A DNA stretch of 64,000 bases. Origin: Candidatus Microthrix parvicella Bio17-1 (GTDB taxonomy: Bacteria > Actinomycetota > Acidimicrobiia > Acidimicrobiales > Microtrichaceae). The notes under the pieces are model-generated. The model was not told where the DNA came from and searched no databases. It worked only from the letters and a program-made list of their open reading frames with translations. Where the stretch lies: contig NZ_AMPG01000001.1 in NCBI RefSeq assembly GCF_000299415.1, forward strand, positions 124,001-188,000, in the 5' to 3' direction. Below, piece after piece: positions 43,406 to 48,805 of the stretch (its first letter is position 1; every line of letters begins with the position of its first letter). A program made the position numbers and the translations under genes.

Positions 43406-44205
43406 GCTAGAGCATCGCCGATCGGCCCGGGACCTCGCTTGAACTGCAGCACCAAAAGCCTTGGGATGGAGGCCGCCTCGGCATACTCCGGCGCCCGGGC
43501 GACAAAACCCGGCGGGGGGGCGGGCTCATCCATTCGCTCCAGGACAAGTCCCGCGTCGATGGCCGTGTTCAGGTAGGACGACAACGGCCGATGGAAGAAC
43601 CTGATGAAGACATCGGGCTCCACCTCCTCCACCGTGTCGGCCTCGGTCAGATAGGCGCCGACACGCCAATACTGCTCGGGTGGCTCCAGAATGTGGTCGT
43701 CGATCCACCCCGAGTCTGGGGTCTGCAACAACGGATGGTTCAACAACAGCAGGAAACGTCCACCGGGGGCGAGTACCCGGGCCACCTCGGCCAGGCCCCG
43801 GCGATACGCCGGGACGTGCTCGAAGACCAGCGACGCCACCACCATCCCCATCGAGGCATCCGCGACCGGAAGGTCCGTGACGCTGGCCTGCGCAAACGCC
43901 ACGCCACGCCCGGGTACAGCGCCTTGGCCGGCCGTCGAACGTCGGCGACCTCGCTGTTTGGCCACGGACAGCTGCGCGCCGGCGGCATCGAGGCCGACCG
44001 CGTCAAGGCCCGCCTTGACCGCCAGCCTGGTGACCTGACCCTCGCCGCAGCCAACGTCCAGCACACAACCCGCCTTCGGGAGGCGCGACTCGATCAACGG
44101 GAGGATCTGCTCGACGTACTCGGGGTCGGCCCCCTCGGTGAACTCGCGTTGCCACCAATCGGCATGCTCGTCCCATGGGTCGAAGCCAAGGCCCGCATTG
44201 TTCAT
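43402..44205 (-). CDS. SAM-dependent methyltransferase
   Basis: This 267-residue class I methyltransferase has SAM motif I VLDVGCGEGQVTRLA (about 48-62), GLDAAGAQLSVA (motif II), LVFEHVPAYRRGLAEVARVLAPGGRFLLLLNHP (motifs III-IV), and a Methyltransf_11 fold. The target is unknown. It overlaps tdk upstream (ATGA) and rapZ downstream (GTGA), so it is embedded in the operon rather than a chance neighbour. Confidence 0.85.
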   Translation of the reverse strand: MNNAGLGFDPWDEHADWWQREFTEGADPEYVEQILPLIESRLPKAGCVLDVGCGEGQVTRLAVKAGLDAVGLDAAGAQLSVAKQRGRRRSTAGQGAVPGRGVAFAQASVTDLPVADASMGMVVASLVFEHVPAYRRGLAEVARVLAPGGRFLLLLNHPLLQTPDSGWIDDHILEPPEQYWRVGAYLTEADTVEEVEPDVFIRFFHRPLSSYLNTAIDAGLVLERMDEPAPPPGFVARAPEYAEAASIPRLLVLQFKRGPGPIGDALA

Positions 44206-44906
44206 GAATCAATCCTCTCGTTCCTCACCAGGTGGTGCGTTTCAGGATCCGGACCCGTCCGGCCTTGAACCCAGTGGGAGCGGCACAGCAGCTCGTAGGT
44301 GACACGGTGCTCGTCCAACTCCATGGAGGTTTGCGCGTCGGGGCCCGATGGAGGGGTGTCCCCCACCACCAACAGATCGCCCTCGTAGATCTGGCGTCCG
44401 TCGATCAGTCGGGCATTGTGTGTGGCCCTCGCCCCGCACCAGCATCTCGCCTCCACCTGCAGCTCCGACCGCTCGTCAGCCAATTCCAGCCAGCGCGCCG
44501 TGGCGGGAAACAATCGACCCTGGAACGAGGTCAACAGCCCAAACGCGTAGACATCGACGCCGTGATCGTCCACCAGGTGGGCCAACTGCTCCACCTGGGT
44601 CTCGTCGTAGAACTGAGCCTCGTCGGCGACCACGTAGGTCACCGGACCGCCGGCCTGGCGTCGCACCGCCCTCGCCGCAGAGCCCTCCGCGTCAGGACCC
44701 AGCACGGCACCCAGGTCCATGCCGGGCGTTACCTCCAATGCCTCGGCCGCCACCCCCAGCCGGGATGACACCTGACCCCCCGAGCGGTCCAGCTTGGTGG
44801 CCAGCACCCCGGTCAGGCCCCGAGCGCGGAGGTTGTGGTGGATCTGGAGCGCCTGGGTGCTCTTGCCCGACCCCATCGTGCCGAAGAAGAACCGCAACTT
44901 GGCCAC
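44202..44906 (-). CDS. tdk: Thymidine kinase
   Basis: This type II thymidine kinase phosphorylates thymidine for salvage. The 234-residue protein starts at GTG 44906 (VAKLRFFFGTMGSGKSTQAL with the P-loop). It has VVADEAQFYDETQVEQLA (the Walker B and DEAQF motif), LTSFQGRLFP (lasso region) and zinc-binding cysteines in EARCWCGA near residues 155-165 and LLCRSHW near the end. A longer frame would overlap the divergent cyclase gene and lacks family sequence. It is translationally coupled to the methyltransferase gene. Confidence 0.93.
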   Translation of the reverse strand: MAKLRFFFGTMGSGKSTQALQIHHNLRARGLTGVLATKLDRSGGQVSSRLGVAAEALEVTPGMDLGAVLGPDAEGSAARAVRRQAGGPVTYVVADEAQFYDETQVEQLAHLVDDHGVDVYAFGLLTSFQGRLFPATARWLELADERSELQVEARCWCGARATHNARLIDGRQIYEGDLLVVGDTPPSGPDAQTSMELDEHRVTYELLCRSHWVQGRTGPDPETHHLVRNERIDS

Positions 44907-45057: not shown

Positions 45058-47127
45058 ATGGCCTCCCCTCCGGCCGCGCCCCCAACCCCCGGTGCCCTGC
45101 TGCCCGGGGCGCTCCCCGAGATTCCCTCCGTGCCGATGCCCGAGGTGGGGCGTCCTCCGTCGGGGCGCGCCGCCGACGTGACCACCGATGATCCCGAAGC
45201 GGTTGCCCAGTTGGTGGCCTCCGTTCTTGGTGTCCATCCCCCCCGCTGGACCGCGGATCAGTTCGCCGCACGAACCGGCGTGGACGCCACCGTCCTGCTT
45301 CGCATGCGGCGCTCGCTGGGTTTTGCCGATCCACCGGCTGGAGAGCCCGTCTTCTCCGAGGACGACGAGGCAATCGTCGGAGTTATCAACACCGCCATGG
45401 ATGCCGGCGCGATCGACCTCGATCGGCAACTTGCGCTCAACCGGGTGCTCGGCTCGTCCATGTCCAGGGTCGCGTCGGCAGCGATCGCTGCGTTCGTCGA
45501 GGCGCTCGACGCCGAGGACGGCATGGGCACGGCATCCGAGCTGGACGACCTGGACCTGAGCCAGATCATCCAGGCGATGCGGCTGACCCTGCCGATGCTC
45601 GACCGAACCATCGGCCTGGTCTGGCGTCGACACCTGGCGTCGGCCGCACGACGGGCGGTACTGGCGGCCGGCGCTGACGACATCGACACCGGCACCGTCG
45701 TGGTCGGGTTCGCCGATCTGGTCGACTTCACCGAACGTACCGAACAACTCGATGAGACCGACCTGGCCGCCGCCATGGCGCGGTTTGACGACGTGGCCTT
45801 CGACACCGTGTCCGCCCTCGGCGGACGGGTGGTGAAGATGATCGGCGATGAGGTCATGTTCTGTGCCCCCGGCGTCGAATCCGCCGCCGCGATCTGCTGG
45901 CGCCTCATCGACCTGTGCGAGGTGGACGAGGCACTCACCACCCTCCGGGCAGGGTTCGCCTGCGGATCCGCCATCGACCAGGACGGCGACATCATCGGCC
46001 CCGCCGCCAACCTGGCCCACCGTATTTCGTCGCTCGCCCAACCCGGCACCGTGCTCGCACCCGCAGACTTGGCCCCGCCCGAGGAACCGCCCGCCGACGC
46101 CGCCCGTGGAGGCCTGGTTCACCAACCGGGCGACACCACCGGCTATCGCTGGTCGACCATGCGCTTCCCCAGGGACGTGCGCGGCATCGGCACCATGAAG
46201 CTGGCCTCGGTACAACCACAGGTACACGTGCCCGTTCCGGCCACGCCGGAGGAGATCGAGCAGCTGACCCGACTGGGCAATCGGGCCTTCAGCAATGTCC
46301 CAACCGAAGGTTTGGGGGGATGGACCATGCGGCTGGCCGGCGGCGGTCGGCGGCGCGCCAACTCGGTCTCCACGCTCGACCATCCCGGCATCGGCCTGGA
46401 CGACGCACTCCGGTCGCTGAGGTCGCGCTATGAGTCGCTCGGCCTGCCACCCCGGGTGGTGATCACGCCGCTCAGTCAACCGGACGGTCTCGACGCGACG
46501 TTGCAGGCGAAGGGCTGGCGGTCCGAGGCGGTCACCCTGGTGATGGTGGGCGACCTGCGCGAGATTCGTCACCTCTCCGAGCGACGCAGCGCTCGCGTGC
46601 CCCTCATGTCGTATCACCGTCCGTTTCCCTCCTGGAGGGTTGGGTTCGACGATCTGGCCGGCGAGACCGCCGATGCCGATTTGGCGATCATGTACGGCGC
46701 CGGCGAGACCAATCCGATCATCGAGTCCGGGCTGGGATCCCTGCGGCGGGGCCTCCCCCCGCTGGACCTGGGAACGACCGCTCGGCCTCGGCTGTTCGCC
46801 GCCGCGTTGGAAGCAGAGGCCGCTGGAGCCCCCTCGGGCGCCACCCCAGACACCGAGGCCGTCGGCGCCGGCATCGTCGACGGCCCCTGGCTTGGGGTCT
46901 TCTCGATGTGGACCCGGGCCGGCCGACGCCGACGGGGACTGGCGGCTGCGGTGCTGGCCGAGCTGGCCGCCTGGGGCACCCGTGAGGGGTGCCGCCTGGC
47001 CTACCTGCAGGTTGAGGAAACCAACCGCACCGGTCGCAGCGTGTACACCAAGCTTGGTTTCGCCGAGGCCTACCGCTACCACTACCGCACCGCACCGCCG
47101 ACGGAAGGCCCGACAGGAGCACCATGA
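45058..47127 (+). CDS. Class III nucleotide cyclase fused to GNAT acetyltransferase
   Basis: A single 689-residue frame encodes two enzymes. Residues about 45-205 are a helical N-terminal domain like the regulatory part of Mycobacterium Rv1264. Residues about 212-385 are a class III cyclase catalytic domain: metal Asp220 in GFADLVDFT, substrate Lys260 and metal Asp264 in VVKMIGDEVMF, and Asn318/Arg322 in GPAANLAHRI. Residues about 400-680 are a GNAT module of the Rv0428c type: GGWTMRLAGGGRRRANSV, then the acetyl-CoA motif RRRRGLAAAVLAELAAWG and RSVYTKLGFAEAYRYHYR. All key cyclase residues are present. ATG 45058 is chosen, though upstream starts exist (44920). It is coupled by ATGA to an enoyl-CoA hydratase. 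Confidence 0.85.
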   Translation: MASPPAAPPTPGALLPGALPEIPSVPMPEVGRPPSGRAADVTTDDPEAVAQLVASVLGVHPPRWTADQFAARTGVDATVLLRMRRSLGFADPPAGEPVFSEDDEAIVGVINTAMDAGAIDLDRQLALNRVLGSSMSRVASAAIAAFVEALDAEDGMGTASELDDLDLSQIIQAMRLTLPMLDRTIGLVWRRHLASAARRAVLAAGADDIDTGTVVVGFADLVDFTERTEQLDETDLAAAMARFDDVAFDTVSALGGRVVKMIGDEVMFCAPGVESAAAICWRLIDLCEVDEALTTLRAGFACGSAIDQDGDIIGPAANLAHRISSLAQPGTVLAPADLAPPEEPPADAARGGLVHQPGDTTGYRWSTMRFPRDVRGIGTMKLASVQPQVHVPVPATPEEIEQLTRLGNRAFSNVPTEGLGGWTMRLAGGGRRRANSVSTLDHPGIGLDDALRSLRSRYESLGLPPRVVITPLSQPDGLDATLQAKGWRSEAVTLVMVGDLREIRHLSERRSARVPLMSYHRPFPSWRVGFDDLAGETADADLAIMYGAGETNPIIESGLGSLRRGLPPLDLGTTARPRLFAAALEAEAAGAPSGATPDTEAVGAGIVDGPWLGVFSMWTRAGRRRRGLAAAVLAELAAWGTREGCRLAYLQVEETNRTGRSVYTKLGFAEAYRYHYRTAPPTEGPTGAP

Positions 47128-47903
47128 CCGACCGAGTTCGTTTGGAGATCGGCGATGGCATCGCCGTGATCAGCAACGATCACCCCGACAAACACAATGC
47201 GTTCGACGACGAAATGGACGTGGCGCTGTTCGACATCCTGGCAGAGCTGCGAGTGCGTTCCGACGTGCGGGCAGTCGTGTGGCGCGGCGAAGGTGCATCG
47301 TTCTCCTCCGGTCGGGACGTGAGCGCCATCGGCGCAAACACAACGGCATTGACCCACCACCAACTGATGGCTCGCGGTCATCGGGGCATCCAACAGCTCT
47401 TCGACCTGGACGCGCCGATCATCGCAGCGTGCCATGGTTGGACGTTGGGAGGATCATTCCAGCGAGCGTTGCTGTGCGACATTCGTATCGCCTCCACCGG
47501 AGCACGCTTCAGGCTGCCCGAGGTTGGCCACGGGGTCATCCCCGACACGGGCGGCGTGGCCAGGCTGTATCAGATCTGCGGTCCGGGCGTGGTGAGCGAC
47601 CTGGTGCTCACCGGCCGGGTGATGGATGCCGACGAGGCGCTTGCCCACGGGATCGTGTCCCGAGTGGTCTCACCCGAGTCCCTCGACGACACCGCCATGG
47701 AGATGGCCGAGCGCATTGCAGCGGCGCCTGCCGCCACCGTGTCGATGGCCCGCCGGGTGATCGGGCGTCTGGCCGAGCCGCAGATTCGGGCGTCGATGGA
47801 AGACGAATTGATCGGCCAGACCTACATCAACCGGTCCGATGACTTCGCCGAATTTCGAGCGGCTCGCGCCGACGGACGAGCCCCCCGCTACACGGGGAGC
47901 TGA
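47124..47903 (+). CDS. Enoyl-CoA hydratase/isomerase family protein
   Basis: This 259-residue crotonase-fold protein has the first oxyanion region FSSGRDVSAIG (about 60-70) and the second AACHGWTLGGSFQRALLCDIRIA (about 100-122). The RLPEVGHGVIPDTGG segment lies where the catalytic glutamates reside. ATGA overlap joins it to the cyclase-GNAT gene, which puts acyl-CoA metabolism under the same transcript as a signalling/acetylation enzyme. The exact reaction cannot be told. Confidence 0.88.
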   Translation: MTDRVRLEIGDGIAVISNDHPDKHNAFDDEMDVALFDILAELRVRSDVRAVVWRGEGASFSSGRDVSAIGANTTALTHHQLMARGHRGIQQLFDLDAPIIAACHGWTLGGSFQRALLCDIRIASTGARFRLPEVGHGVIPDTGGVARLYQICGPGVVSDLVLTGRVMDADEALAHGIVSRVVSPESLDDTAMEMAERIAAAPAATVSMARRVIGRLAEPQIRASMEDELIGQTYINRSDDFAEFRAARADGRAPRYTGS

Positions 47904-47905
47904 GC

Positions 47906-48805
47906 ATGGCAGAAACACCGGACCAGGTTCAACCTGCCGGTCTTCCCGCACCGCCACCGCTCGGTGCCGCAGCGCTGCCCGGCGGCACCTTCGACGGCTC
48001 GGTGGTGATGGTGACCGGTGGCGGCACCGGCCTCGGCGCCGCCATCGCAGCCGAGTTCGCCAGGCTGGGCGCCGCCCTGGTGGTGGTCAGCCGCAAACCC
48101 GATCACCTCGCCGCCGCGGCCACGGCGCTCGGAGCGATGGGCGCTGAGGTGCTGACCGTGCCCTGCGATATTCGCGACGCCGAGGCGGTGGCCCACGCCT
48201 TCGACGTTGCAACCGAGGCGTTCGGACCACCCGACGTACTGGTCAACAACGCCGCCGCCAACTTTCCCTCACCTGCCGAGGACCTCTCCCCCAACGCCTG
48301 GCGCACGGTGGTCGACATCACGCTCAACGGCACCTATCTGTGCGCTCGTGAATTCGGCCGGCGACACCTGGCGGCGGGGACGCCCGGGTCGATCATCTGC
48401 GTCGGCGCCTCCTACGCCTGGACCGGCGGGCCCGGATTTGCCCACTCGTCAGCCGCCAAGGCAGGGGTGAAGAACCTGGTGGAGACCCTCGCCGTCGAGT
48501 GGGGGCCATTCGGCATCCAGGTCAACGGCCTGGTTCCAGGCCTCATGCCACACGACGACATGACGCTCGACATTCGCACCAACCTCGACCGCAACGAGGC
48601 CCGAGGCCGCAGCCAGCCCGCACTCCGATTGGGCGAACCCCGCGAGCTCGGTTGGGCCGCAACCTTCCTGGCATCGCCCTACGGTCGCTTCATCTCCGGT
48701 CACTCCCTCGCAGTCGACGGTGCCAACTGGCAACGACGCCACCTGACCAACCCCGATGTGGTCACCGTTCGAGAGCAACTTGGTCGAGACCCCTTCCAGC
48801 CGTAG
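47906..48805 (+). CDS. SDR of 2,4-dienoyl-CoA reductase type
   Basis: The 299-residue SDR has the NADP motif VTGGGTGLGAAIAAEFARLG (about 35-54), followed by SRKP after beta strand 2, which favours NADPH. NNAAANFP is present, and HSSAAKAGV replaces the usual YxxxK with SxxxK. This loss of the tyrosine is typical of dienoyl-CoA reductases, where another residue does the chemistry. It starts 2 bp after the enoyl-CoA hydratase stop, consistent with unsaturated fatty-acid oxidation. Confidence 0.85.
   Translation: MAETPDQVQPAGLPAPPPLGAAALPGGTFDGSVVMVTGGGTGLGAAIAAEFARLGAALVVVSRKPDHLAAAATALGAMGAEVLTVPCDIRDAEAVAHAFDVATEAFGPPDVLVNNAAANFPSPAEDLSPNAWRTVVDITLNGTYLCAREFGRRHLAAGTPGSIICVGASYAWTGGPGFAHSSAAKAGVKNLVETLAVEWGPFGIQVNGLVPGLMPHDDMTLDIRTNLDRNEARGRSQPALRLGEPRELGWAATFLASPYGRFISGHSLAVDGANWQRRHLTNPDVVTVREQLGRDPFQP

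Follow-up and report, generated by a model that had tools for sequence, protein, structure and literature searches.

A predicted class III nucleotide cyclase joined in one frame to a tandem GNAT module in Candidatus Microthrix parvicella

In a 64,000-nucleotide stretch of the Candidatus Microthrix parvicella Bio17-1 genome (here called the window), one gene encodes an Rv1264-type regulatory domain and a class III nucleotide cyclase domain that are followed, in the same reading frame, by a tandem GNAT module (Table 1). Our best explanation, in which we have about even confidence, is that this gene is a lineage-specific, in-frame fusion of two normally separate proteins, an Rv1264-type cyclase and a member of the Rv0428c/Cg3035 superfamily of tandem GNATs, with both activities as proposed below. 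The fusion protein is probably bifunctional. Judging from the families to which its parts belong, it would form a homodimer through the cyclase domains, and this dimer would make cAMP from ATP, with the N-terminal regulatory domain in control, as it is in Rv1264. In each chain, the second GNAT repeat would transfer an acetyl group from acetyl-CoA to an amine. Because the join is only about 6 to 10 residues long, the two activities would be held close together.

Table 1. Coordinates of the features discussed; positions are those of the window unless a locus is named
Feature	Position	Strand	Basis
Fused gene (689 aa) with regulatory, class III cyclase, and tandem GNAT parts	45058..47127	+	open frame; domain matches to both halves
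Regulatory domain of the Rv1264 type (Ad_Cy_reg), all-helical, about residues 46-205	45193..45672	+	PF16701; phmmer to 1y10; model
Catalytic domain of the class III cyclase, about residues 212-387	45691..46218	+	alignment of 103 homologues; fold match to 1y11
Short junction, about residues 388-394, last cyclase strand to first GNAT helix	46219..46239	+	frame and codon analysis; limits of homology on either side
Tandem GNAT module, about residues 393-678	46234..47091	+	PF24553; NF049894; model; fold matches
Crotonase-superfamily protein	47124..47903	+	PF00378; start overlaps the fusion stop (ATGA)
SDR, conserved partner of the crotonase	47906..48805	+	2,4-dienoyl-CoA reductase is the best NCBIfam model, with a score under the cut-off
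Thymidine-kinase-like gene	44202..44900	-	P-loop GTMGSGKST; identity by eye
Cyclase with coiled-coil-like extension	L061 5794-7536		
Cyclase with coiled-coil-like extension	L063 5752-7629		
Cyclase with coiled-coil-like extension	L071 5614-7617		
Cyclase with coiled-coil-like extension	L084 5422-7551		
Cyclase with coiled-coil-like extension	L131 5785-7545		
Cyclase with coiled-coil-like extension	L138 2-1618		

The reading frame and the junction

The frame runs for 689 codons without interruption, and both halves lie in it. Homology to cyclases continues in frame up to about residue 386, where the ending KDLGSVQLWVV of a relative corresponds to RGIGTMKLASV in the fusion, and homology to GNATs begins in the same frame at about residue 392. 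In-frame homology reaches to within about 6 residues on either side of the junction. The junction contains no run of five or more identical bases, the coding character across it is continuous (high GC3, lower GC2), and the gene is placed 169 kb inside a contig of 1.7 Mb. Given the in-frame homology to both sides and this position within the contig, a frameshift or chimera at the junction is unlikely on sequence grounds. The earlier note had described a single uninterrupted frame joining three modules, and this description stands; the frameshift or assembly error between about residues 385 and 400 that it had named as a refutation of its claim is not borne out by the homology on the two sides. 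We also considered a frameshift that would end the cyclase at a TGA overlapping ATG380. We rejected this possibility, because cyclase homology in the observed frame runs past that point.

The cyclase and GNAT halves

The identity of the cyclase is settled by comparison with solved structures. The Rv1264 structure 1y10 matches residues 65 to 377 (phmmer, E 1e-18), spanning the regulatory and cyclase domains, and a predicted model of these two domains fits the active-state Rv1264 holoenzyme 1y11 with a TM score of 0.73 (target length). Pfam profiles for this half scored below their cut-offs: PF16701 (Ad_Cy_reg) reached 27.7 bits, just under its cut-off of 28.6, and the generic cyclase model PF00211 reached only 11.3 bits. 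The Rv1264-type layout, an N-terminal Ad_Cy_reg domain directly before the cyclase domain, is present, in agreement with the assignment first made from the sequence. In the model, the pLDDT of the regulatory domain is mostly above 85, with a dip to 68-76 near residues 151-170; for the regulatory and cyclase part as a whole it is mostly about 90 or more, with a second dip near residues 341-360.

The protein has each of the six canonical class III residues (D220, K260, D264, D311, N318, and R322), and these positions are invariant across the 103 aligned homologues. We take D220 and D264 to bind the metals, K260 and D311 to recognize the base (ATP type), and N318 and R322 to act on the transition state. 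The earlier note had placed five of these residues correctly and had left out D311, the second substrate-specifying residue. Lys260 and Asp311 point to ATP as the probable substrate. Residue 223, in the conserved turn after the first metal Asp, is Asp in the fusion (G223D), whereas it is Gly in 98 of the 103 homologues and Asp in one; the usual Gly there is not known to be essential. Residue 317 is Ala in the fusion (V317A) and Val in all 103 homologues. Because G223D lies beside the metal Asp and V317A departs from every homologue, the cyclase could be weak. The description of this domain as apparently active is thus upheld by its intact catalytic residues but made less than certain by these two unusual ones.

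The second half matches GNAT profiles above their cut-offs. PF24553 (Rv0428c_C) gave 59.3 bits against a gathering cut-off of 27.2, as expected of the Rv0428c type to which the module had been assigned, and PF00583 gave 37.2 bits against 20.7. The acetyl-CoA loop of the second repeat, 624-RRRGLA-629, is intact and fits R/Q-x-x-G-x-G/A. Among 49 aligned sequences, the module retains the invariant Gly627 and every near-invariant position but one, an A-to-G exchange at 659. Its structure comes from a model of the module by itself (mean pLDDT 87.1, pTM 0.85), because the GNAT was poorly folded in the model of the whole protein. The fold matches of the module model include the tandem GNATs 7q3a, 2wpw, and 2c27.

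The closest curated family is NF049894, the Cg3035 N-acetylglutamate synthase. The module scores 90.6 bits and does not reach the equivalog cut-off of 280, while four actinobacterial proteins score 311 to 387 in the same search. In a GNAT tree, the fused module grouped with no clade and stands alone (support 33/87). Cg3035 complements an E. coli argA mutant and has N-acetylglutamate synthase activity in vitro (PMC3827942), and Rv0428c is listed with acetylation activity, its substrate unknown (PMC10407107). By analogy with these relatives, a small amino compound is more likely to be the acceptor than a protein lysine. The genome also contains ArgJ. Since some ArgJ enzymes acetylate glutamate as well, the cell might do without an additional enzyme for that reaction.

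Distribution and neighborhood of the fused gene

We searched 33 genomes of the family, among which the host genome is the sole one of its genus. Some part of the protein is matched in 32 of the 33, and the fusion is found in the host genome only. Searches with the GNAT part covered 395 genomes of the class, 396 of the phylum, and 397 of the order (overlapping samples, more than 1,000 in all), and none of the matches extended over both halves. The best 80 of 129 loci from a scan of 85,000 species were cyclases without this GNAT. A scan of IMG/VR found no relative of the fusion protein, and the viral fold library contributed nothing specific. In the plasmid search, no record matched the greater part of the protein; the top matches were to the cyclase part and covered at most 44% of the query. 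Nearly all family members have a stand-alone cyclase, and many Acidimicrobiia have a stand-alone GNAT; these separate proteins show the presumptive two sources of the fusion. The earlier note would have given up its claim if the fusion were absent from all related genomes. At the family level it is absent from them, which on this comparison argues against a conserved system but leaves the existence of the fusion itself untouched.

Several candidate fusions elsewhere were rejected. Long GNAT-containing frames (up to 753 aa) had no cyclase match wherever their sequence was checked, and we read the long frames around GNATs as spurious extensions in high-GC DNA. At two loci (L076 and L124), tblastn matches past residue 400 cross stop codons into unrelated sequence. 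Long C-terminal tails on some Acidimicrobiia cyclases (for example, at L061, L063, L071, L084, and L131) have no match to the GNAT. These loci belong to a group of Rv1264-like Acidimicrobiia cyclases whose C-terminal extension of about 200 to 250 aa is charged, has many Glu, Ala, Lys, and Arg residues, and looks like a long coiled coil (Table 1).

The start of the crotonase gene overlaps the stop of the fused gene in an ATGA at 47124-47127, confirming the coupling that had been reported. Of the 32 other family genomes, 25 have this crotonase, with identities of 62-75%, and the SDR lies directly downstream of it in all 14 relatives inspected. In none of these 14 did we find a cyclase or GNAT beside the pair (in ten of them the readable upstream sequence extended to 2 kb or more). 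At one locus, L176, a cyclase gene lies about 11 kb from the pair. Because 14 relatives have the pair but not the fusion, the ATGA link is, on the sequences compared, particular to this genome. The downstream gene had been called an enoyl-CoA hydratase. Its membership in the crotonase superfamily holds, but where enoyl-CoA hydratase has its first catalytic Glu this protein has Gln113, and Gln is found there in every relative inspected (motif GGSFQRALLCD). The hydratase name is therefore doubtful, and the protein is probably not a classical enoyl-CoA hydratase.

On the other side, a thymidine-kinase-like gene is divergent from the fused gene. Beyond it, on the same strand, are methyltransferase-like, RapZ-like, and YvcK-like frames, whose identities were likewise assigned by eye.

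Alternative readings and known systems

A lineage-specific fusion with both activities has points against it. The cyclase may be weak (G223D and V317A), the GNAT is far from every characterized relative and isolated in its tree, and the fusion is known from a single genome. An alternative that we judge unlikely, though worth weighing, is that the two genes were joined by accident and that their domains work independently, with no regulatory meaning. Occurrence in one genome only would fit such a neutral join, as would the lack of a conserved neighborhood shared by cyclase and GNAT elsewhere and the retention by each half of its own catalytic residues. However, the short linker makes full independence less likely, and because cyclase and GNAT genes are adjacent in no relative, a stop loss between old neighbors is not documented.

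It is also conceivable, if rather improbable, that the GNAT is a sensor of acetyl-CoA or another metabolite that tunes the cyclase, in the manner of the accessory domains of many class III cyclases. Such domains are common and varied; by 2016, Pfam held 746 architectures with a class III cyclase domain (PMC4886424), and against this number the bare fusion is not very surprising. The intact acetyl-CoA loop and the short linker are consistent with a sensor, but the residues of the second repeat look kept for catalysis. A regulatory connection could likewise be added to the bifunctional fusion that we prefer. Within one dimer, binding of acetyl-CoA or the acceptor at the GNAT might gate cAMP synthesis, or the regulatory domain might gate acetylation, so that carbon status would be linked to a second messenger, and we regard this as a quite speculative proposal with a small chance of being right. 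Coupled halves would make the fusion a natural case of one chain that ties acetyl-CoA chemistry to cAMP synthesis, a reversal of the cAMP-gated acetyltransferase of mycobacteria. With uncoupled halves, it would still be a useful test object for the freedom of class III cyclases to acquire partners.

The earlier note had suggested local nucleotide-controlled acetylation of acyl-CoA enzymes, such that cAMP from the fusion protein would control acetylation of the co-transcribed crotonase and SDR. This idea draws on the ATGA overlap and on the precedent of Rv0998 and MSMEG_5458, both known for lysine acetylation gated by cAMP (PMC10407107, PMC8556138). However, a Pfam search found no cyclic-nucleotide-binding domain (PF00027) in the fusion protein, the best-characterized relative of its GNAT acetylates glutamate, a small molecule, and the crotonase-SDR pairs of 14 relatives have no cyclase or GNAT neighbor. 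We consider this model very unlikely. Elsewhere in the genome there are three other class III cyclases and four PF00027 matches, all of the latter in open frames of at most 221 aa, too short for an Rv0998-type enzyme. Finally, although the fusion rests on a single genome, it is hardly credible that a sequencing or assembly error joined two genes, given one-frame homology flanking a junction of about 6 to 10 codons, no long homopolymer, a continuous codon pattern, and the gene's place well inside the contig.

In agreement with the earlier note, we found no described protein with the cyclase-GNAT order in searches of open-licence full texts, which covered part of a 2004 survey of actinobacterial cyclases. 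The portion consulted of a review of bacterial GNATs gives five domain types, none with a cyclase (PMC8556138). Rv1264, the soluble adenylyl cyclase of M. tuberculosis (1y10/1y11), shares with the fusion the regulatory-plus-cyclase layout and all six catalytic residues. However, it stops after the cyclase, whereas the fusion continues into a tandem GNAT and carries G223D and V317A. A second enzyme joined to a class III cyclase has a precedent in LipJ (bifunctional lipase/adenylate cyclase, NF058673), which we take to be Rv1900c. There the partner, a lipase with an alpha/beta hydrolase fold, precedes the cyclase, while in the fusion the partner is a GNAT and follows it; the NF058673 model matches only the cyclase part of the fusion, with 24 bits.

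The GNAT half has the same conserved positions as the tandem GNATs of the Rv0428c/Cg3035 superfamily (C-NAGS, N-acetylglutamate synthase; PF24553) but differs from Cg3035-type proteins in having no N-terminal small domain, in being joined to a cyclase, and in its score on their model. MAB_4324 (7q3a), a clavulanate-pathway GNAT (2wpw), and the mycothiol synthase MshD (2c27) have a two-repeat GNAT fold like that of the fusion; they are only 12-18% identical to it and stand alone, with substrates that are different or unknown. Rv0998 and MSMEG_5458, type III GNATs that are cAMP-gated lysine acetyltransferases, combine cAMP and GNAT chemistry in one chain, as the fusion does. In contrast, these enzymes bind cAMP through a cyclic-nucleotide-binding domain, whereas the fusion is without such a domain, is predicted to make cAMP, and carries a GNAT of another subfamily.
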